Assembly (NCBI GenBank): GCA_015179025.1
Contig: WHUX01000157.1
Location: 62,001-126,000, forward strand
DNA from: Terfezia claveryi
Lineage: Eukaryota; Ascomycota; Pezizomycetes; Pezizales; Pezizaceae
Length of the DNA stretch: 64,000 nt
Direction of reading: 5' to 3'
Shown: positions 5,354 through 54,176 of the stretch, piece after piece
Numbering within the stretch: position 1 is the stretch's first letter
Layout: each line of letters begins with the position of its first letter
The notes under the pieces: generated by a model
Database searches by the model: none
What the model saw: the letters and a program-made list of their open reading frames with translations, nothing else
Told to the model about the DNA's origin: nothing
Position numbers and translations under genes: made by a program

Positions 5354-5835
5354 ATGCAAGCATGCCATCTATGGATGTATCTTTCTTTCTCTTCTTTTGT
5401 GAGGGACAGGGTGTCTCTTTTTTTTTTCTCTTTTGTTTTTTCACTTTTTCTCTTTGTCTCTATTAAAGATGGTACACCTAATAATTGTTACAGATGGTGC
5501 ACCTAATAATTACGAATAACTTACCTAACATGGTGGGTTACTTCTCTTATTTCGGTGTTGCAGAAATGAGAGTGGTTGCGCAAGATGAACCGATATCATA
5601 TGCTGGAGAATCTGAATGCAATTCCAAGCGTATAAGAGAGCGATCCTTTATCAGTGACTTCGAAGGTTGACTGCAGATGTTGCGTAATGAAGTCCTGGTC
5701 TGAAGTATATATAACCCACAACTGAGCTGTAGCACGTGACAAGATTTATGGTAAGCTAAACACTATGCAAGATAAGCAGCGAACATCTTGAGTTCCCGAT
5801 GGCTAGATTTGGTCTGGCGAATATACCCAGGGTGT

Positions 5836-5855
5836 CTGTTGTGCCAACCAGACTA
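5836..5855 (+). repeat. Mini-insertion, 20 bases, perfect 9-base flanking repeat
   Basis: A block of CTGTT followed by GTGCCAACCAGACTA lies between two identical copies of CCAGGGTGT (5827-5835 and 5856-5864). It ends in the same GACTA as the other copies of this family in the window. Confidence 0.8.
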
Positions 5856-6829
5856 CCAGGGTGTATTCGAACGATCTAGTCAAAATGGATGGAGACAGAT
5901 TCACTACGAGTCCAAGGAAAAAGAATTTGCATTAAACTTCTTATGATGTCTGATCCTCTACAATTTGGGGTTTTCACCTCTTGCAGTAAAGTTCCAGAAT
6001 TTCTGGCAGCAATGGAGAACCGACTTGAACTTGGAACCTTGGAACCTTGTAGACGACTCCAGTAGCTAGCTGCCAGAGAGAGACAGAGTATGGAGCAGCA
6101 TGGAAAACGACGATACCTGTTAAGTGGCTAAGCGTATCCTAAAGGTGGTGGTGACCTACCAATCCAAAGATAGCACTTCCGAGTCCCTCCTTTGCCGTGG
6201 CCATAGAGTTGGCGTTTCTCAGCACCACAAACTCTAAACACCCCTTGCACCTTTACTTCGTTTTGCAACAAAGATCAGCCCGAGGCAAGCTCCTCACTGT
6301 CATGTATACCTGCTTTTGACAATGCAGATACTTATGTCTAGAATGTGGTGGGTGCACCGGGGCCCTCCCACAACAAGGATCTCACATGGTGGAGAGAGTG
6401 GAGTGGGCTCAGTGATTTAATCAATGTGAAGAGCACGGGAGAATGAATAGGAAGGAGATGCCACACAAAGAGAGAAAGAAGTAAAAGACAGAAAGAATCC
6501 CGGAAGACAATTAAACTTGAAGAGGGATGACGTTTGCTTCGTGGTAATTATTTAAATTGGGATATTGATTCTGATGGATGATGGGCTACATATCTCTACT
6601 GAATGCGCTGATTAATTCGTGGTGAGGCTGTGGGAGCAGGTTCACTATATTGGCTATAGTCTACATCTATATTTGGGATGCTGAAGGGAGGAGTGTGGGG
6701 GGGGGGGGGGCGCGCAATGGAGCGAGAGAAATGGAATAAGTGAAGGAGATGGTTATGGTACTTTAAAGTTGTATGATGTCTGACATAACGTGGAGATATT
6801 CGAGACGGGGTTAATATTGTTACTGTAGC

Positions 6830-6844
6830 TAGTCTGGTTGGCAC
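6830..6844 (-). repeat. Copy of the mini-insertion motif, no clear target duplication
   Basis: TAGTCTGGTTGGCAC, an exact reverse complement of the family core. The left neighbour TACTGTAGC recurs with one change at 6996-7004, which could mark a 166-base member, but that interval does not resemble the other copies beyond the core. Confidence 0.55.
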
Positions 6845-8023
6845 TTATAAAGGAATGTGAAAGGCTAAAATCAGTGCGCTATATAGATCGTGAACCAAGT
6901 TACCGTGAGGTATCCCCCTTGTCTAACCTACGCCTACCTGCTTGTGCTTGTATTTAAATAGAAAACTGATCAGCCACTTGGTGTAACAGTGTCGGTACTG
7001 TAGTAGCAACCAACTATATTTAGGGATGTATGTATGTACTGTAAGTAAGTACATATGTAAATATCTACAGTTATATAGATATGTATATAGCAAAGGCCTT
7101 TTATAATTTTTCAAAATCTCACACATTTAACAGATCAAACTACATATACATCGCCCTATATTTCCAGAGAAACCAGAAAAAACAACTGCTGAGAAAGGGG
7201 GGGGGGGGGGGAGGAAGAGGGGGGGGGGAGAAGTGGGGGGGGGAGGCACGCTGGGTTGGGTTACACATATTGTGGCTGAATGACGCGGTCGCAATCCGAA
7301 GTTTCAACACAGCCCGAATCTATGAAGCCTGCGGGGGAAACGTGGAATGTAGTAAAAAGTATTGTACTGGTGTAGCAGAGGTGCTCTGCTAATGTATTTC
7401 TGGAGTTGACCCTTACTGGTATCCTGTGTACGGGTACATGTTTGTATGTCTCTATGTACAGTTACATACAATACATTTGTAGTACAAAATATCTCCAGAC
7501 GAATCAGATACCTCCTTAATTCCAACTGCCAATGCTAGAATACAATAGTCCCTAGTGCATAAGTTCATAAGGTTAGAATCGATACTACTATTACAATTTG
7601 TATATAACCAGTCCTCACGTGTCAGCCCTAAAGTACCGCAGTACTTGGTGGAGTATATCTCAGTCTATACTTCAGACAGAAAAAAAAGAAGAAAAAAGGC
7701 ATGGGTTGGTGCCTTCTCGACCTCATCGTCCTCTCCCTGCCTCCCCCGCCCCCGACTCCCATCATTAGCTAAAAGCGAGCGTACATGCGTAAGGGTGTGT
7801 CATGAATAACCAAAAAAAAAAAGAAGATTGCCCAATCCAAGCCAATCCAAAGTCCATAAGAAACAAAGTGAGAGCGCACACCTACACGACATAAAATGAC
7901 CAAAGGAAAATCAGGTAGTACTATATGCACAAACTCCCTCCAGATCGAGTCCCGTTCCTGCGCCCCAGCTCCTGCCATAAATTTGCCTGCTTCACCAAAA
8001 ACCATGGTTCACGGGATCTACTC

Positions 8024-8739
8024 TTACTCAACAGGCACGGGTGGCGCCATCCTTGTGGGCATAGGCGGTACATTTCCCCCTGCATTAACAACACTAGGCG
8101 ATCTCTCTACCACCACAAATCCTTCCTTTGCTTCTGAAACAGCTGCTGAGTCGTCTTTCGGCGGTGCTGGTGGCGGGGCATCTGGCATAGGCGGGACTGC
8201 ATCGGAAATGCCTGGTGGTGGTGGTGGTGGTGGGGGAGGTGGTGATTTGGGCATTGGAGGCACACCAGTTGGGCTTCCTGGGAGGGAGAGTCTCTTCTTC
8301 TTTGCCTCGAGAAGCTCCTCTGTCCGCTTTAGACGGGCTTGTAGAGCTTCAAGTTCGGCATTGTGGGATGTCAACGAGAAACGCCTGGAAATTGCGCAGC
8401 TCGAGTCAGTCGGAGAACTGTGGAGGGGAGGTTGGGAAAAGGGGCTGCTGGGAGACGAACTTGTTCTCTACGGAATTCGTGAGCTCATCAAGGGTGTCGT
8501 TGATGAGAAAGATATTGTCTAGCTGGTCGGCGAAATGAGCTGCTAGAACCCTATGGTGAGCGAGCGCGTTAGCACATGTATCTAGAAATGAGGGGGGGTG
8601 AAATGCTGTACATGGCGGGGGGGGTATGGAGGTTTATTGGGATAGGGGTTACCAACGATTGAGGCCTGGCACTCTTGGAAGACTGATTCTTTGGAGATGT
8701 TTCCCCCGCGGAAGTATACGCTGAGCCTGATGCAGACAT
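8024..8739 (-). CDS. Unrecognised coiled-coil protein with proline-rich C-terminus (model unresolved)
   Basis: I cannot name this gene. Reading the minus strand, a start at 8739 gives MSASGSAYTSAGETSPKNQS... up to a GTAACC donor at 8652. The next coding block (about 8410-8560) encodes VLAAHFADQLDNIFLINDTL, and the last block (8024-8405) encodes a helix (HNAELEALQARLKRTEELLE) followed by a Pro-rich segment with a run of ten prolines and repeats of PPMP, ending at TAA. The middle and last blocks are in frames that differ by one base near 8405-8412, and the first intron's phase does not fit cleanly, so at least one indel or an unseen intron is present. Alternating coiled coil and polyproline suggests a cytoskeletal or scaffold role, which is only a guess. 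Confidence 0.5.
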
Positions 8740-8899
8740 GTTTATTTATTTTTCTGGAGTTCGAAATACTCGAATTCTGTTGTTGTTGGGGTTCGGAGGT
8801 GAGCAGACCGCAGAAGATGATGGAGGTAAAATAACTCAGGAGCAGTTTGGTGCTTACACGAAAACAATGGAAATTAAAAATGCAGAGGAGTGAACATAC

Positions 8900-9010
8900 C
8901 TTTATAGCTTGGCTTGCGTCCTGCCTCGACCACGTTTAGCGTTTCTGGACTTCGAAGTGAATTGAGGAGCTGCTTCTGACGTTCACGGACAGTGTCCACG
9001 AGGTAAGTCT
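8900..9010 (-). CDS. Isolated exon-like segment
   Basis: On the minus strand a CCAG acceptor at 9011-9012 opens a clean 36-codon block (TYLVDTVRERQKQLLNSLRS, then PETLNVVEAGRKPSYK) closed by a GTATGT donor at 8899. The residue pattern looks like real protein rather than noise. I could not join it convincingly to the gene at 8024-8739, nor find its first exon; if the donor is ignored it runs on for nine codons to a stop. It may be a small separate gene whose 5' part is near 9100. Confidence 0.35.
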
Positions 9011-12000
9011 CTGGAATGATGAATGAAAAGTGATGTCGAGGTGAGTCGCAGTATGATCAATGACACTTCACGGTCACGGTCTCCTCTTGACTTCTGGCTA
9101 TGTCGCGCAAGTACCTTGGAAAATGCCCCCTACCGCCAAATCCACGCGACTGACCCGATGTATCAATCCAAGCCACTTGTAGCATAAAGCTATGTACTTG
9201 ACACAACGGCTCAGCTGTCCTTCGTTCCTCTCATGGCAACAAAAAGGGGTTCAGAAAAACCATGTCCCTTATCTCAGCGATTGCCCCTCACCAGCACACC
9301 ACAGTTTAGCCCCCAGCTACTTGATCCGTGTAGGAATAACCCGAGGTAAAGTACCTAAGCTAGACTGTGTTTGTGTTAGGATTAGCAACCGTACAGCAAC
9401 CCATCGTGCTAATTTTGACCAAACAAGAAACGACAGGCGGGATCGGCTGTGCGCAATAGGACGAGGATATGGGAAATTTGTCCACCATGGTCAACGTTCT
9501 TGAAATCTCATTTGGTTGAGTCTGGTGACATAAGACTGGATTTTGAAAAATGGATGACCAGAAAGTAGGAAGCGTGACCTGTTCGTGAATAGTCGTGACA
9601 ACGACAATGATTGCAGTCATGAGCGCTCACTCCAATGTCTCTCTCTGTTTTGTGTGCTTCCTTGACGCCCGGTTGATGCCTATGGAGTACCAGTTAACAG
9701 TACTCAGCTCCGGGGAAACTGAGCCCTTGTCGGTTTTTCAAGACATCTCTATCACTAATACTAATGTAGATGTACCGGTATTTCTTAGGCACCTTCCTAG
9801 TCTGGTTCCATGGCCCCCACCATATACTCGTGCCAACCAGACTACATATACTCAACTTCTTCCAACGTAGCATAGAGTCTTCTCCAAACTATAATAATCT
9901 GTTAAGCCACCATGCATATAAAGCTTTGTATCTTCAGTCCCATCAGTACTTGATATAGAAATACTTGCCTGCTTAAAGGACAATGATACTGTCTTATATC
10001 TCTTCATGTAGCTTGTCAAACCGCTTTGGTGATAAAAATGCGACGACAGCTAATACTATTTGTCTCTATAGGTGCCGCATTATTTACCGTATAGCCAACT
10101 TGTCATGTTTAGATGTCGCAGGTTGTGCTGTGTTGCAGCTGTCTCAAACAGTGGTACGGGCTCCTCGCCAGTTTTCCCGGCATTAAATACAAACTTACTG
10201 CATGACATGACCGTCAACCAGGGTCTCGGGATTCGGAGTCATAAATGGATAGGTATATATAAAATACCATGAAAGCGCATACTGGTTTGCCTGGAGTCGT
10301 ATGGAACAGGAATAAGGCGCTATGGTCCTGACGGGACTGGACGTCCTTCTGAGCATCTGGAATCTCCGCACGATTCGGAGTTACCTCAATCACACTAATG
10401 GGGGTTTCCCTAGTGACCGGAGTTTAATGTCAATTAGCTATTGAACGCTTGGTAAGTAAAAGGAAAGGCATAGGAACTATACCAACTATAGTCATGTTGT
10501 TAGGTAGCTCTCTGATCACGTGCAAACAGGGTCCAATATGGATGCCAGATGTCCAAATGGTCTTGTTACCAAATGTTAACTTGCATGCAGCTGAACCTCT
10601 TGATAGAGATATATGGTGACCACTCCTGGGCCTGGTTCGTAGCCATTTATGCCATTGATTAACCTCGATCCCTTCTTTTGTACATCTGAAGGTTGGAACA
10701 AGATCAGACCCTCTACGGAACAAGAGCCATGGTGAGCGTACAATATACTATCGGTATCTTGACCTGGCACCCAGTGATCACGTTTTGTCCTAGCGCTTAC
10801 ACTCTCCAACATGAAAATATCTATCCCCGCTAACAGTTCCTATTACTTTAACAAAGAGGGTCGGATCGAGACTGAAGCCTGTAAAGAATATCAATAGAAA
10901 TGACAAGAAGCTTACCTATATGCACATAGGGCACGTTCTCGCTGTGAACTTGTTCAAGAAAGACGGGAACTGACTGCAGCTGTGCTACAATGATCTGCTC
11001 TGGTCACTTAGCAAGAATGACGCCTGGTGATTACCTAAAGATTCAACCGTCGTCCGAGGGCACGCAAGGGATTTGAGATTATAAGATAATACAGTAGCTC
11101 TAGGGGTCTAGTCCTATGTCTGGTTATGGTAAATGGATAAGGTGGGGCATAGCTAGTCGTCTCTTCGATATCGGTAGGAGTTTGGCCTGGCATATACTGT
11201 ACGTATCGTGCAAATGAAGTATGTAGTGCTCTATGCATATGCATACACACGTTAACGTGGGCCAAAGTTACCGTTTTATGCAGCGATCAGCCCCCAATAT
11301 GCTCCGTACAGGTATATGAAACACAGGTGATGTCATGGTAATTGTAACAAGATTGAGCACATCAAGGGCATTTAGATTGTACAAGGTAGTATGCTCATCA
11401 ATACTTAGTAAATCATTTTTTTTGGTAAATCAGTGCTCGTATTTATTCTATCTGCGTTTGACGAGGGTGTGCATCCACCGAGTCAAACCCTGAGCCGCGC
11501 CAGCCCCGAAAAACATATGTCCTTTCCCCACCTGTCCCCTTTCTCCGAAGAAATTGGGAAAGTATGAAGCGCTGCGGGTCCTCCCATATCTCTTCCCACT
11601 GTCTCCCGTTCCCGTTTCCTACGTCCCTGCACTGCAAGATGTGTGCCGCATTTTGTATAGCTGCACCGCCAGTCATCTGCTTTCACAATCTTAAGTATCC
11701 GAAATTCTTGCGGACCCTTACCCGTTACGCACCAAATCTTCAATCTTCCCTACCTACTCCCCTGCTCACCCTCCTCAAACCAAATTCACTTACCCCCACA
11801 TTTTAAACTTCTTCTTCTACACTCCCTCCACCTGCTCCAACCTTCACTCACCTCTTTAGCCAAACTTCGTAGACCTCCTTTCCCGCGTCACCCCATCCTT
11901 TATCCCTCTCCCTTCTGCACAAACAACGCCAGCTTGACTTTAGCCCCTTCACAGAAGGCTTGCATATGTGCTAGTGTTTTCTTAAGTCATCTATACGATC

Positions 12001-12319
12001 CCTATACCGGATCATTGGCCTCGGTTTCTCGTCAATCCCTCTCAGTAACTCATCTGCCACAGCCTTCCTGCTAGATAGCTGCCTATAGGAAGAGTGAGAT
12101 ACAGCTAGCTATCTAGGCTACATAGACAATCTCGGAACTCTTACACAGTGAGTTGGGATCCGGAGATGGGTTGGGGTAATTGATTGGGCTTAGTAGGTTG
12201 GACTTTAGATCGATGATTTTGGCACTATGTGAGGACATGACTATAACTGGAGAAATTATCTCTATCTGTGGTTCTCTGGCTAGTCCGTGTGTTCAGCAAT
12301 CTGTTCAATTGTCCAATAA
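9011..12319. other. Gene-poor stretch
   Basis: No gene supported; open frames are short, overlapping and without motifs. One clear mini-insertion is present at 9830. Confidence 0.5.
9830..9844 (+). repeat. Mini-insertion, 15 bases, perfect 9-base flanking repeat
   Basis: GTGCCAACCAGACTA sits exactly between two identical CATATACTC copies (9821-9829 and 9845-9853). Removing the insertion and one repeat gives a continuous empty site. Confidence 0.85.
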
Positions 12320-20759: not shown

Positions 20760-20900
20760 GATACACGCATTAGCAGGTACTCACTCTGTTCCAATCTACC
20801 ATTGCCCGCGTAATTGCTGATATTTCTATTGGCAATACGCAATCTTGTCCAAAAACAGAAATCCCCTTCAAATATGCCAACAAGACTACCTTCAAATACA
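20760..20900 (-). pseudogene. Ty3/Gypsy integrase fragment
   Basis: About 80 bases match the segment 21808-21885 closely (CCATTGCCC, TTTCTATTGGC, GCAATC). Allowing frame changes, the minus strand gives DCVLPIEI and MVDWNR, the motif block downstream of the catalytic core in fungal Gypsy integrases. The rest of the element is not recognisable. Confidence 0.5.
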
Positions 20901-21666: not shown

Positions 21667-21679
21667 GCCAACCAGACTA
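21667..21679 (+). repeat. Mini-insertion, 13 bases, near-perfect 9-base flanking repeat
   Basis: GCCAACCAGACTA lies between GCGTTCACC (21658-21666) and GCCTTCACC (21680-21688), eight of nine bases matching. Only two bases further on, an inverted, diverged copy (TAGCCTGGTTGGTA, 21690-21703) makes the pair a short imperfect palindrome. Confidence 0.65.
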
Positions 21680-22660: not shown

Positions 22661-23938
22661 GAAGGAGGTTTGGGCAGTCTGCTGTTGGCCTTTTTCGACA
22701 TCGTTTAAGTGGTTTGTTTGTATTCGATTCATCAATCGTTTACTTTGTTTGTAATAAGTCGTTTCGGTCGTTTGTCAATCCGATCGCTTTCATCACAGAA
22801 AGAGAGGAGATGGATGCAAATGACTTTGAGAGAATTGAGTAGCCGGCTGGGTCAAGAAACGAGAAGGTAAATTCAGGTCAACTACTGTGAAAGAATGAGG
22901 AGATAGAATGAAATGGCTTGTCGAGATAGAAGGAAGATATTGTATCGACTCGAGGGACTACAATTTCAACCGGTCGCAGTCACTTTCAATGGACCATGTA
23001 GAAAGCAGGCTGGCCTTGTGACGTTTACCTATAAAAGGTCCAGACTAAAATTCTGGACTAGAAAATATTCCTAACTGGGTAATATTCCTGACTAGGAACT
23101 AGACAACGTAGAATACCAAGTCATGCATAGTCTGATATTGTTATAATATGTCTCGCGCTGAACTACAAGTGTAGTAAACATTGGAAGCTCAATTATATAT
23201 GAGGTGATAATGATGTACAGGAAAGTCGAGCTGGCTCCAGCCAGGAGAAGCCTTACCCGGGACTAGTCTTCTAAATGTAAAGGCTGGTGAGCCGAGCACA
23301 AGGTAGTTATGTTACAAATCATCATCAACTAAGGTATAAGCTAGTCGGTTGGCACTACATCTAGGGTGGCAACTGTTCACGGTCGTGCTAATCTTCTCGA
23401 GTAAGAAATAGTTGACTGATCTCGAGAATGTGTAATAGGCTGCCCACTGCATTCCCTGACCGACGCAGCTATCTTTGTTGACTGACTGGGTAATAAAGGA
23501 TCGATCTACCGTAGAAATTTGATGATAGAGGCAGCAAGGGCCTTCTTACATTGTAATACGTCTTACAAACGAGCGTACAAAGAGAGGCTTATGTGGTGCG
23601 GCCAAGAAGTCTCCGCCATATCTAGCCTGTCCTGGATTTGTTACATCCCCATTAACAGAGGGTCTGGGCACGAGACTACATGGTTTGGCCTTAGGTAGTC
23701 CCCGTTAAGGGGGGGATTAGTAGTCAGGGAAAGAAAGTCCCAAATAGGCGTTTGTTGAGCTGATGATCTCGTGATCCGCTAGTGTCGAGTGGAAGGACAT
23801 AATTCCGTGCAACTTATGTAGTGAGCAGGTTGGTCTATTGCACCACAAGTCAAGGCCACAAAAAAGTATTGATATACTCCGTTCTTACCCAGGTATCTTC
23901 TGTCTTTCCCAACAAGGTTATAAGCCCGTTCTCTTCTA

Positions 23939-24733
23939 CAGATGACTCTCGTTACAAGCATATCGTCGGGACGGGGGAAGGTATGCTTATAACCAATATA
24001 TGCTTATAAGTAGAGAAATTTATTACTAGGTAGGAAAGCCTCCGGAATGACACAATAAATACTGGACATGCATACAAATAACAGAGAGACATCAGGAAGA
24101 GGAGGAGGATGCTCCGGAAGTACCCCAAAAAATCAGTTATCCTGCTGCGCTGCACATGCTGCCGCCTGCGTTCCATCTCAAGAATCTCGATCTGTTTTTT
24201 CTCATGCTTGAGTGCATCTTGGAAGGTATGTAGTGGTAATGACCGGGGATCACCTTGGCGACTGCGTCAGTTCTTTACTTGGGTTTTCGAATTCGAACCA
24301 TCGTTTAATATGTCACTCGGGTTCTGTTTTGCATATGTCTGTATACTCTGAAGTTCCACCTCTGACCATGGCTGACGGTGCGGAACAAGAACTCTGTGCA
24401 GAAGACATAGAAATGTAGTTTATGTTGTATTGAATATTTGTGTGTGTTGTATGTGTTGCGTGTGTTGTGTATGTTGTAAGATACAATAGCGTAAGCGTAT
24501 CTGTGGGGGTTATTTCTAGTCTGGTTGGCACATTTTTATCGATAAACCTCTAGTTATGGTTTAGCGCTTCTCTTGTTACAAGCATATGTATGGTGACTAA
24601 GCAAAAAAAATAAGAATATTCTAGTAACGGAAATATCTACGGAAATATGCTTATTTACTATGTGGAACTGCCGAAGGTATGCTTGTAACCAATATATGCT
24701 TGTATCTGGTATGCTTGTAACGAGAGTCATCTG
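23939..24733. mobile_element. TA-flanked inverted-repeat element (pogo/mariner-like, non-autonomous)
   Basis: The element starts CAGATGACTCTCGTTACAAG and ends with the exact reverse complement; the perfect terminal repeats are 24 bases (23939-23962 and 24710-24733). TA dinucleotides flank both sides (23937-23938, 24734-24735), as for Tc1/mariner insertions. Further copies of TATGCTTATAACC and TATGCTTGTAACC lie inside both ends. A minus-strand frame near 24060-24180 encodes ERRRQHVQRSRITDFLGYF, which resembles a transposase C-terminal tail and matches a tail at 46.2 kb. At 795 bases it cannot encode a transposase. Confidence 0.85.
24517..24531 (-). repeat. Copy of the mini-insertion motif, no target duplication
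   Basis: Exact TAGTCTGGTTGGCAC inside the 23939-24733 element. The neighbouring bases show no 9-base repeat. Confidence 0.5.
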
Positions 24734-24747
24734 TATAACGCGTGGTA

Positions 24748-27197
24748 TGGTGCCGGCAGTCTAGAGGGTACCATTCTTGGCAAAATGGGTAATTCGTCCT
24801 GAGCCTTAGTCATCACGGGTTTATTTTTTTATTTATTTTGTGTGACGTGAATAGATTGCCAACCACACCAAACAATGCCTCCGATCAGTAAAAAGAGAAA
24901 AGTGTATATCGCTTCCACCGTGAAAGCCTGCCAAGCACGTAAAACTCAAAGAGTACCTAATGATTATAGTGATATACAACTTCACATCGACCATGACAGT
25001 GAAGAGGAGGACTCGGAGCTACGAGTTGAGGAGGAACTAGTTATAGAAGGCGATGCTTTGGCACACTTGATGGCTATAGCTAGTAGAGACTTGGACTCAC
25101 TGGCATCGGAAGAACCTAATTTCAAATACCAGCGAGGGGTTCGGCAGTCTCGTAAAGCATTATACCTGGCTCGAAAAAAGCAAGCCGATTTACAGTATGC
25201 AGCTGCTAATACAGTAAAAATTATGGAGTTCTTTACATCAAAAGCCACTGTCAATACCGACCCTATCAACACTGACTCAGTAACTTGCAATCAATTGCAG
25301 TTAGCTATAGATGACCTTAAAGCTCTACTTCATTCAAAACGTGTGCCTATAGGTCAGAATTTCAATCGTCACAACACGGTCCTTTTATTTCTACAGCTTC
25401 AACTTCGGAAACCCCAAGAGAGTCAGAAATCACTATCATTACTTCTTGCGGAGGCTTGTAGTTGTAGTGAAAAAATGGCACGACGGATACGGACTTGGAC
25501 AGATTCCTGGATTTCTTCTCGATATATTAGAGTCGGAATGCGAAGCAACTTCTCTAAAGTTTCAAGCTGGTTAACTGATAAGGGAGTCCTCCTTACTATA
25601 CGGGAGTATATTGCAGCTGTTGGTGAGAAATTAACCTCGCATAGGCTGGCTAAAGCTGTGAATGAGTATCTAAAAGAGGAGAATATTATTGGTGGGGCAG
25701 AGGATTGGAAGCATTCAATTTCTGAGCGGACTGCTCGGATATGGCTAAATACACTTGGATTTCAATAGAAGGATATTCGAAAGGGAGTATATGTGGATGG
25801 CTATGAGCGGGATGATGTTGTTGCATATCGACAAAATATATTCCTTCTATAGATTGAAGAAATACAATCATCATTACAAACGTAGGATGAAGATAGTAAC
25901 ATTATTCCAACATGCTTACCTCTGGGAGAGAAAGAGTAGATCCTTGTTACTCATGATGAATCAATATTCAATACAAATGATGGAAAGCGGCAGATGTGGG
26001 TCAAAGATGATGCATACCCCCTACGAAAGAAAGGACTGGGAAAAGGAATCATGATCTCAAAGTTTATGACTCCGCGTGGTCGACTAGCAGTACCCTCTGA
26101 TATCTATGCTGAAGATCTTCCTCATGGTCAAGCAACTGAATTCCTTGAATATGGCCAGGACAATTGGTGGACAGGAGAGAAAATGGTTGAATATGTGCGC
26201 AATATTGCTATTCCAATTTTTGAAAGAGCATACCCTGGCTGTCAAGCAGTATTCCTATTTGACAATGCCTCTAATCATGCTGCATTTGCTCCAGATACCT
26301 TAGTAGCCACAAATATCAATTTGAGGCCCAGTGGAAAGCAGCCAGTGATGCAGGACGGATTCATACACTCTCAACAATGTCCGCAGCCTATGGTCTTTCC
26401 TGAGAATTACTCAAATCCAGCACTTCGTGGAAAGCCGAAAGGAATAAAGCAAGTACTTCTTGAGAGAGGGCTTTGGCAGAATGGTATGCGCCTTGATTGT
26501 AAGCCAAGGTGTCAAACTCAGGCTAGCGTGGACTGCTGTGCACGACAATGCTTACAAAATCAGCGAGACTTTCAAGAGCAACAGGGATACCTGCAAGAAG
26601 TGATTGAAGCTAAGGGGCATCGAGTGATTTTTTATCCTAAATTTCACTGTGAGTTAAACTTCATTGAATTCTTCTGGGGAGCGGCAAAGAGATATGCTCG
26701 TGAGAATTATGAATATTCTCTCCAAGAGTTACAGGATACTATACCTCATGTACTTGAGTCCGTACCAGAGGTAACTATATGGCAATTTTATTAAAAGTGC
26801 CAATGGATGATGCAGGCATATCGTGATAGTTGCCAATATAGTACTATTTAAAGTTCAAAGATTATGTATACAAAAGCCATCGTAGAACTCATGTACTGAA
26901 TGGAGACTAGTCTAGCCCCCACATCATACATATATTTCCTATTTCGGTCATTTTAGTCTCTCTTGGCCTCTCTTGGCATGGGTAATTTATTGGCTCTCAC
27001 ATACAAAATGGTCTTTTCTTTTTACCTATCAACTCACTCATTTTTTATTTTTATTTTTTTTTACAACGTAATTATTGTTCTCCATAGCCAATACTATCGA
27101 TTTTACGTTAAAAATATTTGAGATCTGTCATGGTGGTGTTGTTGATACGTTAGTGGCACACCCCCTAAAAATGGTACCCTCTAGACTGCCGGCACCA
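24748..27197 (+). mobile_element. Tc1/mariner-type DNA transposon, full length with intact ends
   Basis: A perfect inverted repeat spans 24746-24775 and 27170-27199 (30 bases including the flanking TA). It begins TATGGTGCCGGCAGTCTAGA. Taking TA as the target duplication (24746-24747 and 27198-27199) gives an element of 2450 bases. The single gene inside is a DDE transposase on the plus strand. It lies only about a dozen bases from the right end of the 23939-24733 element. Intact ends with a stop-riddled gene mean it could be moved only by a transposase supplied from elsewhere. Confidence 0.93.
24875..26794 (+). pseudogene. DDE transposase of the Tc1/mariner element, broken by in-frame stops
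   Basis: One reading frame runs the full length from ATG at 24875. The first 297 codons (a basic, acidic-patched N-terminal half ending ISERTARIWLNTLGFQ) stop at TAG 25766-25768. The same frame then continues KDIRKGVYVDGYERDD with three more TAGs before THDESIFNTNDG (first catalytic Asp), FLFDNASNH (second Asp) and CELNFIEFFW (catalytic Glu), the DxxH...NxIExxW pattern of IS630/Tc1/mariner enzymes. It then reaches TAA at 26792-26794, and the frame runs on to about 26890 with plausible residues. No frameshift is needed anywhere. Every stop is a TAG or TAA that a single C-to-T at CpA on one strand or the other could make from CAG, CAA or TGG, the pattern left by repeat-induced point mutation. 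Confidence 0.9.
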
Positions 27198-27450: not shown

Positions 27451-27465
27451 TAGTCTGGTTGGCAC
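27451..27465 (-). repeat. Mini-insertion, 15 bases, perfect 9-base flanking repeat
   Basis: TAGTCTGGTTGGCAC sits between two GTAGGAAGC copies (27442-27450 and 27466-27474). One base further on a second copy, TAGTCTGGTTGGC (27476-27488), follows without its own duplication, and a degraded inverted copy (GTGCAACCAGACT) lies near 27533. Confidence 0.8.
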
Positions 27466-27715
27466 GTAGGAAGCGTAGTCTGGTTGGCGGTCCCTTATCT
27501 ATATCGTACATAGTTTAGCCTGCCCGGATTGTCGTGCAACCAGACTCACGAGTAATGAGTTTTAAAAAAATATAAATAAATAAATCTGTGCAGATCTCGA
27601 GCTGATTGTCAGCCGACAGACGACGTTTCTCAAGACATCCAACTGTGGCTGATATTATGGCAGGATCATTGGCTCCTAACCAACGAGGCGCAGCCCCAGA
27701 TGTCAATGGAACTCC

Positions 27716-34000: not shown

Positions 34001-34009
34001 CATGCTTAT

Positions 34010-40484: not shown

Positions 40485-40980
40485 GGGTGTTGCTCAAGGA
40501 GGGGATATTTATGCACGATCGTTTAGCTTTATTTGGTTTTGTGAACGTTCCGCTTATGCTTGTGGTATTGTTGGAGCCGGAGTTGGAGGTCTGGCTTGTT
40601 TGTCTTTCTCCGCACGGGATGTGCGACTTGAGAGTGGGGAATGGTCTGTGGGGTGGGAAATGCCGGAAGAGGAAACAGAGGCTAAGGAAGGGGAAATGTA
40701 TATAATGAGTAGTCTCGATCAGACCTCGTAGAGGATAATGAGAGGTGGTGGACAACCTCCGTAGAAAAGACATCCTACTCTTTGCTGTGCACACAATGGA
40801 TTGTCTTCTCACTGGGATATCTAGTGGCTGGCACGAGACTACTAGTGGTTGGCACGAGACTACTAGTGGTTTGTATATACATAAATCCATACGTACGCCA
40901 TTTTGTCTATCTTATGCCATAGTGACATCAGCGAGTCCTCATCGCTCACATACTTTTATCTCATCATCGCCCATATGCTT
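40485..40980 (+). repeat. LTR-like direct repeat, right copy and flank
   Basis: Begins after the polypurine tract with TGGGTGTTGCTCAAGG; the part 40648-40797 matches 38252-38358. Near 40818-40872 there is a short tandem repeat of CTAGTGGTTGGCACGAGACTA, about 2.5 copies. Confidence 0.55.
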
Positions 40981-45379: not shown

Positions 45380-45524
45380 TAATGTAAGGACGAACATCTG
45401 AAAGGCTCACTCACATGTAAATTGTTAAGTTCATATGTGCGGAATAGCTAGGTGTGGGCTGAAATGACATGCACGACAATTTAACACCTCTCCTCAACAC
45501 GGACATGCTAGACCGAGACCCATA

Positions 45525-46415: not shown

Positions 46416-46419
46416 TATC

Positions 46420-47193: not shown

Positions 47194-47497
47194 GTGACGT
47201 GGAGATACGCTGGAAATAACGATTCTGTATTGGTGGACGTGTGCAAAGAGCTATCAATGTTAGTTTCGTTGTTGATATCGGCTGCAAGCAGCGCAAGCTC
47301 ATATTGATTGCCGCAGGCGGTTGTGAGGTATCAGATGTGTGAATGGGAATCTTTATTGGACCAAAGTTGTAAGAACCATCCAGATCATATTCAGCTCCGA
47401 CTGTAGCTGTAGCTGTACAGTACATCGTTTGTTTTATAGCCCACCAGTAAGGCTGTATTAGTTGCTACATAGCTGAAATATATAGCCCGATGTAGAT

Positions 47498-48060
47498 TTA
47501 CGGTGTTGATTGATCTCCTGCATAGTCAGCATCCGAATAGCTTGCTAGATTTAGAGCGTTTGGGTATATATGATTAAAATGGATGCAGCTGGCAATATTA
47601 GCCGGTATAAAGCAAGGCTGGTAGCTCAGGGATTCTCTCAACAACCCGGTACGGATATCGATGGGGTTTTCGCTCCTATAGTCACATATGACTCCCTCCG
47701 CTTGCTCATTCCCATATCTATATGCCTCAGACTGGCCTATGCTAGACCAGCTCGATATCAAAGGCACATTCCTCTATGGACATTTCAACGAAGAGGTCTA
47801 TATGGCGTTTATCCCCAGGTCATGAACAACCTGATTGTTACGAGTGATATGGAAGATTGACTGGTTTCCTTATACCACTTTGCTACAAAGCGGCAAATTT
47901 TGACCCTAGTTGTCCTAATACATACTAAACACAATATTATAATTGCAATATATGTCGATGATATTGCAATATTTGGTGGCAGTCCACTCAGACAAGAACT
48001 CAAAGAATCACTTATAATCTCAGTGATCTAGGTTCGCTGACTTGGTTATTAGGCATACAA
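47498..48060. pseudogene. Ty1/Copia reverse transcriptase and RNase H debris, rearranged
   Basis: On the plus strand (47570-47860) the frame encodes [20 protein letters not shown] then [20 protein letters not shown], the start of Copia reverse transcriptase. Further on, with frame changes, YVDDIAIFG near 47950 is its catalytic box. On the minus strand, just before it (47498-47572), NLASYSDADYAGDQSTP is the Copia RNase H motif. The two pieces of one polyprotein thus lie head to head in opposite orientation, showing inversion or nested insertion after decay. Confidence 0.8.
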
Positions 48061-48822
48061 ATTGAATGGCATCAGAATTTGGTGACGGTACTGTGCATAG
48101 CCACCGGACCGGCCGATCAACTTGCCCCAGTCCTGAATCCATCCGGATAGGAAAACAAAGAATGAGGGACCCCGGATGGAACAACAGAGTAATTGAAGGC
48201 CTGAATGTACCTGAAGACGGACCGGGTCTTCCAGAGGGCATAGCTGTGTAGGATAAGGAGAGCGGGAGATTCCTTTCTGCGTGTGCGGTAAGACCCAGAA
48301 CGCGGCACCTATAATGGAATGTACGTGGGTTGTGGATGAGAGAGAGCGGAGGCTGCAGCAGGCGGAGGAGGATCAGGAATGGTGCAAGTGGGTGTAGCAA
48401 TTTCTCTAGGGAACGATAGAGGCCAGCATTGAGGCCATCCCTTCCTGGTGTATTTTTTCTCTGCTCCGTAGTGTTCATATTTCTTCCGGAGGGGTATCTA
48501 ATATTATACGTTAGATACGGGGTAGGGAACGGCTCAGGAGTTGGAAAATCCAGCCGTTACCAACCCGGTGATGCGCTCCTTCGTCATAACTAGATACAAG
48601 TACTGATTTATTAAAATTAAGGGGGAGGGTGAAAGACATTTAGAAGTAGGAATAAGTGGTTTATGATAGGGAAAAGAAGTTGGATATTAGCGAGTTACGG
48701 ATTGAGAGAAGTGTATCCAGAAGTGACAAAGATGGGGGAGACCCCCTTCAAGGTTGAATCAACTAGATAGAATACGAGTACTACTAAAGAAAAGGATAAA
48801 ACGAAAGGTGAGGGGGCGCGTG

Positions 48823-49116
48823 TGTTAGAAGGTTGCTCGTGTCATTCCAGCCCATACCTATTAGCTTAACCTTCGCACGGCTCAACCTTCATGTGATCTT
48901 CCATATGAACTCACATATGAACTCACATGTACGTTCATTCATGTATATATAGCTGTGTAATTCCCACCTTACTGGGAGATCTCAGAGGATATCGATCTAT
49001 CTCATAGCTGCTCAATACAAAGCTATTTGCTCATTCACTGTGCTTCTCTACCGCTCTTCCACATTCGTATCTTCCTTCGTTGGACTCACGGCTCTTACCG
49101 CTCACCTATTCTCATA
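48823..49116 (+). mobile_element. Solo LTR with 5-base target duplication
   Basis: Begins TGTTAGAAGG and ends TATTCTCATA. GCGTG flanks both sides exactly (48818-48822 and 49117-49121). A TATA-like TGTATATATAGCT lies in the middle. It matches the diverged copy at 12320-12598. No coding sequence remains, as expected after LTR-LTR recombination. Confidence 0.85.
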
Positions 49117-49121
49117 GCGTG

Positions 49122-50860
49122 TGGAAGGAGAAGGAGAGAGAGAAGTTGAAATTGCGAGGAAAAATCCCCTCCGTCAAAACCGAAGATGAGAATATGAAAG
49201 GCGAAAGTGGGGGATATAGTGTCAATGTGGGTTGTGGTGAATAATGTAGATGGTTTTGTAATGTATAGTAATACTGTGTAGACCGAGTTCAAGTATCAAT
49301 AGTTTAGATAAGATATAAGGGATGAAATAGAAGAATGTGGATTTTGGAGAGGCTAAGAAAGCTGCATGTAGAGTATATGTATATGAGCTGAGCTTATCAT
49401 CTGGTGACTATTAGTATATCTAGCGAAACCAGCTACAACTATGAGAAAGGAGGGGTGGAGGGGAGGCGGGGTCGATGTGGAAGAGTTGAGGGTAACAGGT
49501 GTATTTCTGCTATTCTGAACCCCCACCCAGTGATGCAGTAATTTTCTAGAAAGTTTAAGTATCATTACCAAACCACAGCATGGGTTCAATACAGTTATTT
49601 TTCTTTTTGGGTGAAGGAAATATTCATATTCGCCCATGAACTAGGCAGCGCGTCCCCCCAAAGGCTCCCTGCGCCCCCACATGTGTGTCCAGATACATCC
49701 CCAGGGGAAAAAAAAAAAATAATAATTAAAATAATGACAAAATCGCCTAGTTGAATAGTTATCTTGTAGTAGCCCCATTCCCAAGCAAAAATCATGAAAA
49801 GACCGAGTCCATACCAAAAATTCAGGTCAAATCATCCCTCACATAAGTTATCAACCGTATATGGTAGTCTCATATTACCGACCCAAAGGACAACCTATAG
49901 TTCTCTGTCGTGTCTGCAGTGTCGTAATTCAGGTGGATCGGGTGACAACTGCTCTCAGCGTAGTGGTTCTTTTTTGTCTCTTTAATGGACGTGTATGTAA
50001 TGCGGAAAAAACGACCCTTTTTATCCCAAATTTGTTCTCCACCGAATTCAAAGATATATTCACCCAGTAGTCTGAAATGAGAGTCTTTACCAGCTGGACC
50101 ATCCTGGGGGTACGTACTTTCGACTGCCAATCAACCGCATTTCACACCAGACTCTCTAGTAAGGGTCGGTGCAACGATACTACTCCTAGACTGCTTTTTT
50201 GCCTTTTGATAAGCTAGGAATTGTACCCAGTTAGTGGGAAGGCCATAGCCTGTACCTACAGCCAGTGCTGGGATCAGTCCAATATTGCCCAACTGCGATT
50301 TGAGCCGCCTCCTAGTTCGGTCACACGACCTTCCAACAGGGACTACCTCCCTCTAATCACCATACTTTTCTCCCTACCACCCCCATACCCCATACCCCAT
50401 ACCCCATACTCCTGCAACCCCACCAACCACCTCAATCCATTGATATCGTTCATTCCACTTCCTTGGACCCGAGCAAAGTGACAAAAACCCCATGTTAATG
50501 CTTAGGATTTTGAGATGAGATAATCCCACGACAGGTGACTCGCCTGAATGGGGATTGATTGAAGGTTTCGGGTGAATGGGTGAATGCATGGGATGGCGGA
50601 ATTATATACGGAGAACTGTTGACCTTCAACTCTTGCACTTCCAACCACTCATTCTTAGTTTCTAGGGCGGTCATAGCAGTCTAGAAGTCGTTCAAGATTT
50701 TAAATTGCCCTACATGCATAGTTGTTGTTGGTGCCATCATATTATTTAGTGCTGGTCTCGTCCAGAAAGTATTGATTTACGGACGCTAGGAATGTCGATA
50801 TCGCAGACGCGAGAGTGGGAGGTGGATGAAAATACGAAAGGATTCATGGTGGCTCATTGT
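49122..50860. other. Gene-poor stretch
   Basis: No gene supported. A short CCATACCCCATA microsatellite-like repeat lies near 50380-50410. Confidence 0.45.
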
Positions 50861-50874
50861 ACTTATCCAGCGGA

Positions 50875-51011
50875 CCTGGCAGATACTTGCTTTGTCCTGA
50901 ATCCACCTGGGCTCGCGGGTGGCTCCTCTTGGTCCCAGTCTCGCTATTCTTGGTCCCCTTACTGGGACGAATAGGAGTATTAAATACAACAAAAAAAAAA
51001 AAAAAAAAAAA
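50875..51011 (+). mobile_element. 137-base LINE 3' end with 14-base target duplication
   Basis: ACTTATCCAGCGGA flanks the insert at 50861-50874 and 51012-51025. The insert carries the shared 3' box (GGCAGATACTTGCTTTGTCC, TGAATCCACCTGGG, GGTCCCCTTACTGGGACGA, ATAGGAGTA) and ends in about 21 A. A short internal duplication of TTGGTCCC is present. It is a recent, heavily 5'-truncated insertion. Confidence 0.9.
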
Positions 51012-51145
51012 ACTTATCCAGCGGAAGCAGGTGGAGGGTGTAGGTTGTTGGGTCGGGAGAGAAGAAGAGACAAGAGACTATGTATGTAGAGGGGAAGCAA
51101 GTAGCGAAGTGTCACTGTAAAAAAGAAAAAGATAAAAAGGAATTT

Positions 51146-51241
51146 CGGCTCAGCTGGGAATCGAACCCAGATCACCCGCCCTCTGCCTGGAAATCAGCAG
51201 GACACTACGTAGCAGGAGTCATACCATTAGACCACTGAGTT
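51146..51241 (-). tRNA. tRNA-like gene with probable intron, isotype uncertain
   Basis: On the minus strand there is a perfect B box (GGTTCGATTCC) in a five-pair T arm, an A-box-like D arm (TGGTCTAATGGTATGAC), and an anticodon stem CCTGC/GCGGG separated by about 31 bases, which implies an intron of about 24. The acceptor stem has two mismatches at its end (AACTCAG against CTGAGCC). Keeping U33 gives anticodon ACG (Arg), but another register is possible. Its near twin is at 53747. It may be a pseudogene. Confidence 0.6.
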
Positions 51242-51369
51242 ATCATTATATAGCGGGTACTCCTGTATCGCATTTTGGGCAGATCCTAAATGGAATCATA
51301 TAAGGATAAAGCTCGAAGAAATAGGAGATGCAATAGAGAGAAAAGAAGAAAGTAATACAAGAGAAAACG

Positions 51370-51384
51370 GTGCCAACCAGACTA
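51370..51384 (+). repeat. Mini-insertion, 15 bases, perfect 9-base flanking repeat
   Basis: GTGCCAACCAGACTA lies between GAGAAAACG (51361-51369) and GAGAAAACG (51385-51393). Confidence 0.85.
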
Positions 51385-51874
51385 GAGAAAACGATACAGT
51401 AGCACTTGTGTCCTCCGACTCGGCCCATAACCAATCTAGGCCTGGGCACGAGCCGGCTCGAGCCGAGCCTGGGGGTAGGCTCGAGCCGACTCGTGGTTTT
51501 ACAAAGGAGCTCGAGCCGGCTCGAGCTTTACGAAAGGAGGCTCGAGCCGACTCGAGCCGCCAAGACTCGAGCCGACTCGAGCCGCCAAGACTCGAGCCGG
51601 CTCGCATACGGGCTCGAGCTGGCTCGCGAGAATTGCAAGAGTAAATAGATAACTGCGTACGCTACATATCTGTATAGGTCATGGAAAAAATCAAAGACGC
51701 AGAAATATGGAAGATACAGATATAAACAGACGTGGAAATGGACAGAATCAATTTCAACCTTCATCGTCCACCTAAAGTCGGCTGCGAAATCGGACGATAC
51801 ATAGGACTGCAATATTGTCGTAACCGAGCAAATGGTAGGTTTCAACCATAGCGAGATACAGCGGTGTTCTGACC

Positions 51875-53155
51875 GATACAGCTTTCGTTCCGGTCCAGCA
51901 ATGGCACTAATGACCGGCCCATCTAGCAGTGGGCCCAGCCTATGCAACGACCACAATAATTTCTAGCATAAATATTGCATACAGAACTATCTATGTAAGC
52001 AAGCGAAACAACCTAGCGAAAAAAACAAGCGAAACAACCAAGCGAATATGACATACAAATAAATAAATAAAATACTAAAACAGAGAAATACGAAGGAGAA
52101 AGAGACAGCGGAGAATGCGCAAGTGTAGGCGCAAGTGTAGTGCGTGAAACTACAACGCGGGTATTACGTTCCTCAAAGGCAGCGAGATTAAGACATGCTT
52201 CAGCCTGATCGAGGCCCTTGCCCCGGTGGCAATAGTTGGTGCATTTAGAGCCAGATTTGAAGCACTTGCATCGTTTCGTTTGGCAGGTAGCATTATTGCT
52301 GCAAGCACAATATAGAAGCACCTCTGTTGCTTGAGAGGCCAGAGCAGCAGCGCGGTGGAGGGTGATCACCGATGAATTGCTTATAAGATCCAAAGTTGAG
52401 GCTAGAGAAGGCATGAGTCTTTAAGAATATGAAGATTGATATTAAGGATTAGATACATACCCACAAGCTTAGAAACCCGGTTGAGTTCGCCAGTCGGATA
52501 TAATCGATCCAAGATACCATGCTCTGTCCATAGTTGATATCTACCAGAGTGTGGCTGACGTATAATATGAGCATAGAGTCTAGGATGGTCTAGAGTACTC
52601 CGGTCTTCCCTAGGAATACGCAGTGAAACAACTGTATTGGGCTCAAAGGACTCAATAACAAATCGTTTATTATAACGATTGGCCATTTGATCCCGAGTCT
52701 TTTGGGCAACAGACAGTATTGATTCCTCTGCTTCCGTTAGTACAATAGAAGAAGATGCTGCCTTTGAGGAATGTAATACCCGCACTGTAGTCTCACGCAC
52801 TACACTTGCGCCTACACTTGCGCATTCTCCGCTGTCTCTTTCTCCTTCGTATTTCTCTGTTTTAGTATTTTATTTATTTATTTGTATGTCATATTCGCTT
52901 GGTTGTTTCGCTTGTTTTTTTCGCTAGGTTGTTTCGCTTGTTTTTTTCGCTAGGTTGTTTCGCTTGCTTACATAGATAGTTCTGTATGCAATATTTATGC
53001 TAGAAATTATTGTGGTCGTTGCATAGGCTGGGCCCACTGCTAGATGGGCCGGTCATTAGTGCCATTGCTGGATCGGGGGGCCCATACAGCTATAGCGGCC
53101 CATTAATCTACGGGGCGGCCGATTGCTGGACCGGAACGAAAGCTGTATCGGTAAG
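51875..53155. repeat. Long inverted repeat inside the hAT-ended element
   Basis: ACCGATACAGCTTTCGTTCC through CCATCTAGCAGTGGGCCCAG and TATTTATGCTAGAAATTATT(reversed) to CGCAAGTGTAGGCGCAAGTG on the left matches the right arm in reverse over about 290 bases. The right arm has an extra 60 bases near 53070-53125. The spacer of about 610 bases holds the integrase tail. Confidence 0.8.
52013..52800 (-). pseudogene. Integrase-like protein C-terminal end with Cys-rich tail
   Basis: The minus strand encodes MANRYNKRFVIESFEPNTVV then SLRIPREDRSTLDHPRLYAH and WTEHGILDRLYPTGELNRVS (52402-52740), followed after an intron-like gap by CACSNNATCQTKRCKCFKSG and CTNYCHRGK (52195-52310). This order, a chromo-like integrase tail followed by a CxC-type cysteine cluster, is known from Ginger/KRBA2-type integrases. 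The catalytic core is missing, so this is the 3' remnant of such a gene. The Cys cluster and the 5' end of the piece both run into the flanking inverted repeats. Confidence 0.6.
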
Positions 53156-53574
53156 AACAGCGGTGATTTCATCAATTTGTGCAGTTTCCTCCTCTTGTGT
53201 TGGTAGGCGTGTTTGGTTATGTCGGAAATGGAGCGATTATAGTTGTAAATTTTGAAGGGAGGAAATGAACTCCAGGACTGCCGGAGGAGGTTGTGTTATT
53301 GAGAAAGAAAAAAAAGAGGAAAGGGTGGAACTGCAACGCATTTTGAAGATTTCCACTCACCGGGTACCTTCGGTATTTCGCGGTTACAACGACCTCCGGG
53401 CTCGAGCCTGTGTAACCTTGGGCTCGGCTCGTGCCCAGGCGTAAACCAATCACAATATGTTCATTAGATTTTCTATTTGTACATGCCTGCAAGCGCTGGC
53501 AGACCACTGGAAACACCTATACTGGATTAAACGAGACTAGGTGACTAGATTGTGCTCTGGTGCATACTGGATTG

Positions 53575-53606
53575 CCTCTTTCAAAGGGTTTGTGCCAACC
53601 AGACTA
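53575..53606 (+). repeat. Mini-insertion, 32 bases, imperfect 9-base flanking repeat
   Basis: Ends GGGTTTGTGCCAACCAGACTA minus one base of context. Flanks are ACTGGATTG (53566-53574) and ACTGAGTTG (53607-53615), seven of nine matching. Confidence 0.55.
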
Positions 53607-53746
53607 ACTGAGTTGATGGTCGTGTAGAGACGGTGATAGATAGTCTAGTTAAGGACCTCAAGGTTGAGGTTTAGGCCCTATTGGGAAAGAATAGGGGAAG
53701 AGACAATAGATCCCATGGGTCGCTATGAAAAGCAAAAAAGAAATGT

Positions 53747-53841
53747 TGGCTCAGCTGGGAATCGAACCCAGACCACCTGCCCTCTGCCTAAAGTCAGCAG
53801 GACACTACATAGCAGGAGTCATACCATTAGACTACTGTGCC
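53747..53841 (-). tRNA. tRNA-like gene with probable intron, second copy
   Basis: Same design as 51146-51241: perfect B box, A-box-like D arm, CCTGC/GCAGG anticodon stem and about 24 bases of intron. The acceptor stem here is better (GGCACAG with CTGAGCC, one mismatch) with discriminator A. In the register that keeps U33 the anticodon reads ATG, differing from the first copy. The flanking sequences of the two copies are unrelated. Confidence 0.6.
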
Positions 53842-53875
53842 TTTTTAGGTGAGGAGTGACTGTCGAAAACAATTA

Positions 53876-54058
53876 ATACTACGACAACCTGACTTCCCGA
53901 GCCGTCAAATTCCATCCAGTGCATGACACTCTTACGACAGCCCTCATTTCCCTAGGAGATCTAGCCAAAGCACTCAACATCCCAGTCGACCTATGGCACT
54001 TAGACGCGTTTGAGCAGCTATGCGGTAGGCTCATCCACTATTTGAACGCACATACACC
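53876..54058 (+). pseudogene. Coding-like fragment, unrecognised
   Basis: An open stretch encodes NLTSRAVKFHPVHDTLTTAL, then SLGDLAKALNIPVDLWHLDA and FEQLCGRLIHYLNAHTP. The residue pattern is that of a globular helical protein, but no start is visible and I cannot name it. The frame ends in the 30-base mini-insertion at 54059. Confidence 0.35.
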
Positions 54059-54088
54059 CTGTAGAGGGTGTTTGTGCCAGCGAGACTA
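54059..54088 (+). repeat. Mini-insertion, 30 bases, perfect 9-base flanking repeat
   Basis: ACATACACC flanks it on both sides (54050-54058 and 54089-54097). It begins CTGTAGAGGGTGTTT and ends GTGCCAGCGAGACTA (two changes from the core). It interrupts the coding-like stretch just upstream. Confidence 0.8.
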
Positions 54089-54132
54089 ACATACACCCAC
54101 GTTATACTGAACTCACTATTCCACCTAATCTC

Positions 54133-54167
54133 CCTCTACATACCGAGGGGTTGTGCCAACCAGACTA
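54133..54167 (+). repeat. Mini-insertion, up to 35 bases, imperfect flanking repeat
   Basis: Ends GGGGTTGTGCCAACCAGACTA minus one base of context and begins CCTCTACATACCGAGG. CCTAATCTC (54124-54132) and CTTAATGTC (54168-54176) agree in seven of nine. Confidence 0.5.
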
Positions 54168-54176
54168 CTTAATGTC

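Follow-up and report, generated by a model that had tools for sequence, protein, structure and literature searches.

Very short GACTA-ended insertions with nine-base target duplications in the genome of Terfezia claveryi

A 64,000-bp stretch of the genome of Terfezia claveryi (positions 62001-126000 of contig WHUX01000157.1, numbered C65 among the contigs here; hereafter called the window) contains a family of very short sequences that end with GACTA. Many of these GACTA-ended sequences are separate insertions. The inserts found between 9-base duplications span 8-54 bases overall; this is well below the size of ordinary transposons, and most of the inserts keep one hairpin arm only. The initial annotation of the window had proposed mini-insertions of 13-35 bases with a GACTA end and 9-base target duplications. 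That these are real insertions is borne out by exact duplications at 34 of 108 sampled cores (0.60 after shuffling) and by empty sites in repeat copies, and their tiny size is confirmed, whereas the range has to be changed to 8-36 bases for one-armed inserts and up to 54 for palindromic ones. The inserts appear to derive directly from a fold-back palindrome of 23-54 bp that shares their ends and their 9-base duplication. With moderate confidence, we regard the inserts as micro-MITEs (MITE, miniature inverted-repeat transposable element), i.e., as palindromes of 23-54 bp moved by a transposase with a 9-bp stagger (Mutator type), most of which would have lost one arm of the hairpin upon insertion or shortly thereafter.

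Genome-wide abundance, target duplications and empty sites

The core sequence GTGCCAACCAGACTA has 2885 exact matches (1453 and 1432 on the two strands) in the 72.6-Mb genome of 794 contigs, whereas the reversed sequence, used as a control, has none. Two relatives with the same end but another inner sequence, GTGCAACCAGACTA and TCTGATCGAGACTA, are found 671 and 407 times (reversed controls: 0 and 4, respectively). The three patterns sum to 3963 termini, a figure that includes passengers copied within other repeats and for part of which duplications were demonstrated. In the window, the core is found 9 times exactly, 14 times when up to two mismatches are allowed and 17 times with up to three, compared with a mean of 1.52 and a maximum of 5 of the last kind in the shuffled window. 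Concerning their distribution, 15 gaps of at most 200 bases between neighbours are found among the 99 cores on C1 and C2, against 1.36 expected under uniform placement; some of this clustering is due to palindromes, some to nested insertions (e.g., L025, 4322-4411). The setting is of nuclear type, the window also carrying a leucyl-tRNA synthetase gene (open reading frame 462-1910; 66 percent identity to a Pyrenophora protein, among the best 120 of 1833 matches). The core family has no match in the viral and none in the prokaryote collection.

Target duplications were counted in a sample chosen blind to the flanks, comprising 108 rows: the nine cores of the window and 99 of the first 100 cores listed (56 on C1 and 43 of the 44 on C2 up to position 453,557). 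One 30-bp palindrome enters this sample twice, and insert lengths of 15-45 were scanned. A 9-base repeat at both insert ends is exact in 34 rows and matches at eight of nine positions in a further 13, whereas shuffling the right flanks among sites gives means of 0.60 and 0.89. Two more exact duplications appear in the same sample at an insert length of 14. The flank test proposed in the initial annotation, applied to this sample of 108 rows (2885 cores in the genome), yields a clear excess. In the window, 7 of the 132 GACTA termini stand next to an exact 9-base repeat (insert length 8-60; 0.027 expected), and three more match at eight of nine bases (0.75 expected for eight or more). A third set, of 137 CCAGACTA termini, is biased, being drawn from the window, from regions picked around cores and from 20 loci of Mutator-like elements (MULEs; three of the termini); 44 of these adjoin an exact repeat of at least nine bases (0.80 expected), with a sharp peak at nine. 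Partial repeats, in which only the first 6-8 bases match, are seen at 21 of the 137 (2.5 expected by shuffling), and eight of these match again past the first difference and so look like substitutions. The target duplications start with C or G in 28 of 36 cases (one palindrome counted twice); their symmetry is not significant (0.29 vs. 0.245, p 0.11).

Empty sites are observed in paralogous copies of a dispersed repeat of around 800 bp, one of which occupies positions 23937-24737 of the window; many copies or pieces exist, mostly with 76-94 percent identity. Among ten copies aligned at the insert at 24517, eight possess the 15-bp core insert (with a 4-base deletion in C10), whereas C415 and C789 lack it; with a single difference in 241 bases, these two are counted as one lineage. 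The copy in C124 (L111) carries a private 31-bp insert TAGTCTGGTTGGCACAACACCCTCGTAGAGG between two exact GCACATTTC, and that in C773 (L115) a private 8-bp insert GCAGACTA, in the opposite orientation, between two GCACATTTC as well. Elsewhere, GCACATTTC is single in five other copies and mutated in the copy of the window, and C415 and C789 are without the older insert of the region. With the private 20-bp insert TAGTCTCATGCCAAGACCCT of C190, two of the three private inserts have 9-bp duplications and all three are one-armed. The 9-base duplications together with the empty sites in dispersed-repeat copies show that the inserts are real. The core at 61785 is an old passenger of a second, larger repeat, since it was recognised in every copy looked at.

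Some further observations concern these copies. The inserts of C124 and C773 look independent, lie in opposite orientations at the same target GCACATTTC and stand beside the older core insert; this target is a possible insertion hot spot. The copy in C312 (L113) has four extra bases near the place of the 20-bp insert of C190, possibly an excision remnant. Near-identical stretches are found in the contig pairs C3 and C408 (L051/L068) and C415 and C789 (L116/L117), and the assembly may hold duplicated haplotype contigs.

Palindromic and one-armed inserts

The inserts exist in two forms. In the palindromic form, fold-back units of 41-54 bp (also of 23-30 bp) have the 9-bp duplications outside both GACTA ends. 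The one-armed form, which is commoner, possesses a fixed GACTA end and a variable end and is mostly 8-16 or 25-36 bp long. The 47 rows with supported lengths comprise 19 of 15 bp, one of 20 bp and 27 of 25-36 bp, three of the latter being palindromes of 25 and 30 bp; inserts of 8-14 bases turn up when only CCAGACTA is required, i.e., in the biased set of 137 termini. The two main one-armed length classes each correspond to roughly half the length of a palindrome class.

Inverted pairs of exact cores occur at 46 places with 0-30 bases and at 18 with 31-60 bases between them, and 20 of the 46 close pairs were fetched for a test of end duplications. Where the arms pair over at least 17 bases from the ends, an exact 9-bp repeat lies outside both ends in 8 of 10 rows (two of the eight, L051 and L068, being one locus in two contigs), whereas none of the 10 rows with pairing over 15-16 bases only has such an end repeat, two of them having an exact repeat shifted by 1-5 bases. 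Hence some of the pairs are true palindromic units, of 41-54 bp, and others arose by chance or nesting. Exact 9-bp repeats also flank smaller palindromes of 23, 25 and 30 bp.

Toward their fixed end, the long one-armed inserts typically consist of up to five bases, a loop of 3-5 bases, the complement of the first bases, a few linker bases and the GACTA core (e.g., TCTC-TAC-GAGA GG..., CCTC-TAC-GAGG G..., CTCC-TGT-GGAG GG..., CCTCC-AACA-GGAGG...). Over 27 inserts, the longest stems on the upstream side of the core total 73, compared with 53.0 +/- 3.8 after shuffling (0 of 500 as high). In the outermost hairpin pair, T faces A in 64 of 73 cases and C faces G in 25 of 27 (among 100 of 102 genome matches listed). 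A few inserts (e.g., of 27, 35 and 36 bases, with another leading sequence) form no hairpin. The variable end is situated at or just outside the hairpin loop in most 25-36-bp rows and exactly at the edge of the core, i.e., in the middle of a 30-bp palindrome, in the 15-bp rows; between loop and core edge it is found in 1 of 47 rows (20 bases). One-armed inserts thus resemble half of a palindrome together with its tip.

The sites of the window are given in Table 1. The five perfect sites of the initial annotation (5836, 9830, 27451, 51370, 54059) are exactly as described there, with nine of nine bases matching. It did not name the insert at 20874, nor the half of the tandem at 40851-40862, which has an exact duplication CTAGTGGTT.

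Table 1. Core-related sites in the window and their target duplications
Feature	Position	Strand	Target duplication and remarks
20-bp one-armed insert, CTGTT + core	5836..5855	+	CCAGGGTGT at 5827-5835 and 5856-5864, exact 9/9
Exact core	6830..6844	-	none recognised
15-bp insert	9830..9844	+	CATATACTC, exact 9/9
15-bp insert ATGCCAACAAGACTA	20874..20888	+	CCTTCAAAT, exact 9/9
13-bp insert GCCAACCAGACTA	21667..21679	+	GCGTTCACC/GCCTTCACC, 8/9
15-bp insert in copy of ~800-bp dispersed repeat	24517..24531	-	5-bp duplication ATTTC in intact copies; absent in 2/10
15-bp insert	27451..27465	-	GCTTCCTAC (GTAGGAAGC on +), exact 9/9
Diverged second copy CCGCCAACCAGACTA beside the 27451 insert	27476..27490	-	none recognised
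24-bp insert CTCTACGAGGTCTGATCGAGACTA, variant end type	40710..40733	-	CTCATTATC/CTCATTATA, 8/9
Tandem, two 12-bp inserts GGCACGAGACTA between three CTAGTGGYT	40830..40862	+	9/9 and 8/9
15-bp insert	51370..51384	+	GAGAAAACG, exact 9/9
Exact core	53592..53606	+	best 7/9, insert length 32
30-bp insert, hairpin at variable end	54059..54088	+	ACATACACC, exact 9/9
Exact core	54153..54167	+	best 7/9, insert length 35
Exact core, passenger in multi-copy repeat	61785..61799	-	recognisable in 5/5 copies looked at, intact in 3

The tandem (40821-40871) reads CTAGTGGYT-GGCACGAGACTA twice and then CTAGTGGTT, and L027 contains a similar one near position 564, with a 9-mer and a 30-base unit; the tandem of the window reflects either an insertion followed by tandem duplication or the repeated use of one target. 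From 54349 to 64000, running past the end of the window, one or more multi-copy elements are situated: stretches of up to 7.3 kb from positions 56717-64000 recur in other contigs, mostly at 92-98 percent, and positions 54349-56716 match a further set of contigs, mostly at 91-97 percent. The open reading frame at 25994-26794 has a weak, sub-threshold match to DDE_3 (Tc1-type).

Origin of the inserts

Concerning a larger donor, the stretches searched comprise 313,417 bases (the window, L009-L028 and the 20 MULE loci; 313 kb), in which no longer element with the ends of the mini-inserts was found among TAGTC...GACTA pairs up to 9 kb apart. An outside 9-bp repeat with at most one mismatch accompanies 6 of 1838 such pairs, all 16-34 bp long, and four of the six are exact (0.007 expected). 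When the right-flank 9-mer was sought within 9 kb upstream of 135 CCAGACTA termini, 9 matches resulted (2.69 expected), three of which are 75-94 bases away within copy clusters; no common interior was seen among the matches. Among 108 stretches taken upstream, each at most 160 bases long, long matches are confined to neighbouring, overlapping sites, and those of distant sites extend over around 17-44 bases, as inverted or nested family copies would give. A 5'-truncated long or short interspersed nuclear element was rejected, since these 108 stretches revealed no longer copies sharing upstream sequence. Plain truncation of a long element, one of the explanations offered in the initial annotation, is disfavoured as well: neither the 313 kb nor the regions upstream of the 135 termini yielded a larger element with such ends. 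A truly minimal mobile sequence, another of its options, comes nearest, with the qualification that the parent apparently is a palindrome of 23-54 bp with the same ends and 9-base duplication. Its suggestion of a Mutator-like 9-base stagger is plausible in view of two resident MULEs with exact 9-bp duplications, but the terminal repeats of these differ from the ends of the inserts.

The genome contains 21 MULE matches, of which 20 loci were fetched, and 9 matches to KDZ transposases. A resolvable pair of ends was found in just 2 of the 20 loci, L029 and L030, whose inverted ends are identical over the first 90 and 36 bases, respectively; the two ends of L030 diverge thereafter. Both have exact 9-bp duplications (TTGTTGAGG and TGCTACCTA, with 2636 and 2618 bp between), and an enzyme class with the right stagger is therefore resident. 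Membership of the inserts in MULEs of this type is unsupported, as the ends of the latter differ (CGGACTGACTC); mini-inserts with such ends were not found either, none of the eight occurrences of TCAGTCCG, which include the four MULE ends, lying near a 9-bp repeat. L034 and L045 were considered as MULEs with TAGTC ends and rejected: their 12-mer CCAACCAGACTA lies in the interior of a terminal inverted repeat, which in L034 (with L122) runs past 600 bp without its end being reached. The remaining matches of the scan for MULE end duplications, at 8-base, mostly palindromic words, were set aside as chance or repeat structure. The terminal repeats of L029 and L030 hold a perfect hairpin, GGACAGGTA-loop-TACCTGTCC.

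Under the micro-MITE reading, a transposase would recognise the TAGTCTGG/CCAGACTA end and cut the target with a 9-bp stagger, and Mutator transposases of the fungus would bind TAGTCTGGTTGGCAC and move the palindromes in trans. The palindrome would then fold, a hairpin nuclease would open its tip, and the unjoined arm would be trimmed to the filled-in target end. The product would consist of one arm, the loop and 0-5 bases between two 9-bp repeats, renewed movement being possible only for copies that keep both arms. The enzyme and the loss of an arm are what we infer here; the near-constant 9-bp duplication points to two staggered strand joinings, folding and tip opening would explain why the duplications are intact, why the tip is retained and why the lengths are those of half-palindromes, and the three one-armed private inserts suggest that the arm is lost early. 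In yeast, Mre11-Rad50 together with Sae2/CtIP is known to open hairpins. Nuclease attack is described for palindromes that consist of whole genes or of Alu/IS50 repeats (PMC8053094, in part).

Several results weigh against this reading. No site was found two-armed in one copy and one-armed in another. A 9-base duplication is not present at every core: in the blind sample, 61 of 108 are without one of eight or nine matching bases at insert lengths of 15-45. In 13 of the 21 partial repeats the match does not continue past the first difference, and these may be trimmed duplications or ones of fewer than nine bases. At 24517, the duplication is only 5 bases long (GGGGTTATTTCTTATCG vs. GGTTATTTC-insert-ATTTCTTATCG), and the private insert of C190 at most a 2-base one. 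The ends of L029 and L030 begin with CGGACTGACTC, not TAGTCTGG, and no transposase gene with TAGTC...GACTA ends was found among the 20 MULE loci. Palindromes with arms of 20-25 bp fall short of the lengths usually studied as hairpin-prone in yeast, and the covariation of the outer hairpin pair may reflect just two founding sequence types.

The main rival to arm loss, which we consider less probable, is one-ended transposition, in which the lone arm itself is mobile: its single GACTA-3' end would be joined with a 9-bp stagger and its far end sealed by end joining, and the palindromes would be two arms joined. It accords with the 2885 exact cores compared with 46 close inverted pairs, with the one-armed state of all three private inserts in paralogous copies and with exact 9-bp duplications even at inserts of 8 bp. 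However, the length classes fit half-palindromes and not arbitrary far ends, and the end duplications go with pairing beyond the core, which an independent joining of arms would not favour. That the inserts constitute a new class of one-ended nuclear hairpin transposons, in which a lone arm of 8-36 bases is inserted with a 9-base stagger, with thousands of copies and as the smallest mobile DNA known, can be put forward as a tentative possibility.

Excision footprints are unlikely. Here, palindromic or longer elements would have inserted and left again, repair copying part of one end into the gap, and interrupted gap repair can indeed leave partial ends at a target duplication. Both duplications remain, the 13 of 21 termini with a prefix match of 6-8 bases could be trimmed duplications, and C312 has four extra bases where C190 has its 20-base insert. 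By contrast, 44 of the 137 termini keep at least nine intact bases up to the insert, more than could be trimmed; bases of both ends would be expected but are rare outside palindromes, and a long parent element was sought in vain in the 313 kb and upstream of the 135 termini. Even less probable is target-primed retroposition, in which a tiny RNA would keep ...GACTA as its 3' end and be truncated to varying extents at the 5' end. This would account for one fixed end, one variable end and internal hairpins, whereas the near-constant 9-bp duplication and the palindromes with GACTA on both sides better fit a staggered joining of two ends, the lengths are bimodal, and no longer template sequence is common to the upstream regions. 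An artefact of library or assembly, in which untrimmed adapters of Tn5 tagmentation mimic inserts, shares the length of nine bases, as Tn5 tagmentation makes 9-base duplications, but it is practically negligible: the inserts diverge and their duplications are mutated, the insert differs from the Tn5 mosaic end, and inserts are shared by 8 of 10 and 5 of 5 repeat copies, such inheritance across diverged copies itself speaking against a library origin.

Significance and comparison with known elements

If the micro-MITE reading is true, the known size of mobile nuclear DNA falls to tens of bases, even to eight, and the inserts constitute a natural record of how hairpin transposons may be processed, with many junctions that reveal the surviving arm and the point at which the tip opened. 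Elements this small would escape ordinary repeat finders, and transposition could therefore account for some of the short insertions by which fungal and other genomes vary. The insertion of a single transposon end on its own becomes directly testable; if transposition is one-ended, a transposable element would be reducible to one half-site.

In the literature on short and hairpin mobile elements (with subscription journals scarcely covered), no nuclear element of this size was recognised. Mitochondrial double-hairpin elements are tiny, consist of two hairpins and are organellar, and we know of no 9-bp duplication made by them. One-ended transposition of bacterial elements of the Tn3/IS91 type also produces a fixed and a variable end, with a constant target duplication in Tn3; these differ from the mini-inserts in being bacterial, in their long inserts and in their known transposase gene.

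The MITEs, especially those of MULEs, are similar in their inverted terminal sequences and in being non-coding. The target duplication of the inserts is of constant length at 9 bp, as in elements derived from MULEs, apart from one insert with 5 bp and one with at most 2 bp. The palindromes have inverted repeats at both termini, the one-armed majority does not; most copies, unlike MITEs, possess one terminal sequence only. Whole palindromes of 23-54 bp are, to our knowledge, shorter than any MITE. Among fungal MULEs, Hop and Mutyl make 9-bp duplications (PMC5014426, in part). Volvox possesses abundant short palindromic repeats, hairpins averaging around 50 nt, in its organelles and in part in the nucleus; there, the nuclear copies are judged to be inert organelle transfers (PMC2670323, in part), whereas here target duplications and empty sites demonstrate insertion.

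Nearest in shape are the GC clusters of yeast mitochondria (GC42, GC18 and GC13 series), very short palindromic mobile DNA with flanking direct repeats (PMC4478555, in part). They comprise families with a common, fixed 13-nt end (76 sequence types) and a variable remainder, and their 18-nt unit is identical to one end of the 42-nt unit (PMC4478555, in part). The mini-inserts resemble GC clusters and double-hairpin elements in forming hairpins, as the excess of stems and the palindromes indicate, and differ from both in location, with 2885 copies in a 72.6-Mb genome and beside a leucyl-tRNA synthetase gene. Furthermore, the GC clusters are mitochondrial, GC-rich and flanked by AG or ACT, whereas the inserts of T. 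claveryi lie in a genome of 72.6 Mb, between 9-bp duplications and with a GACTA end (PMC4478555, in part, for the clusters).

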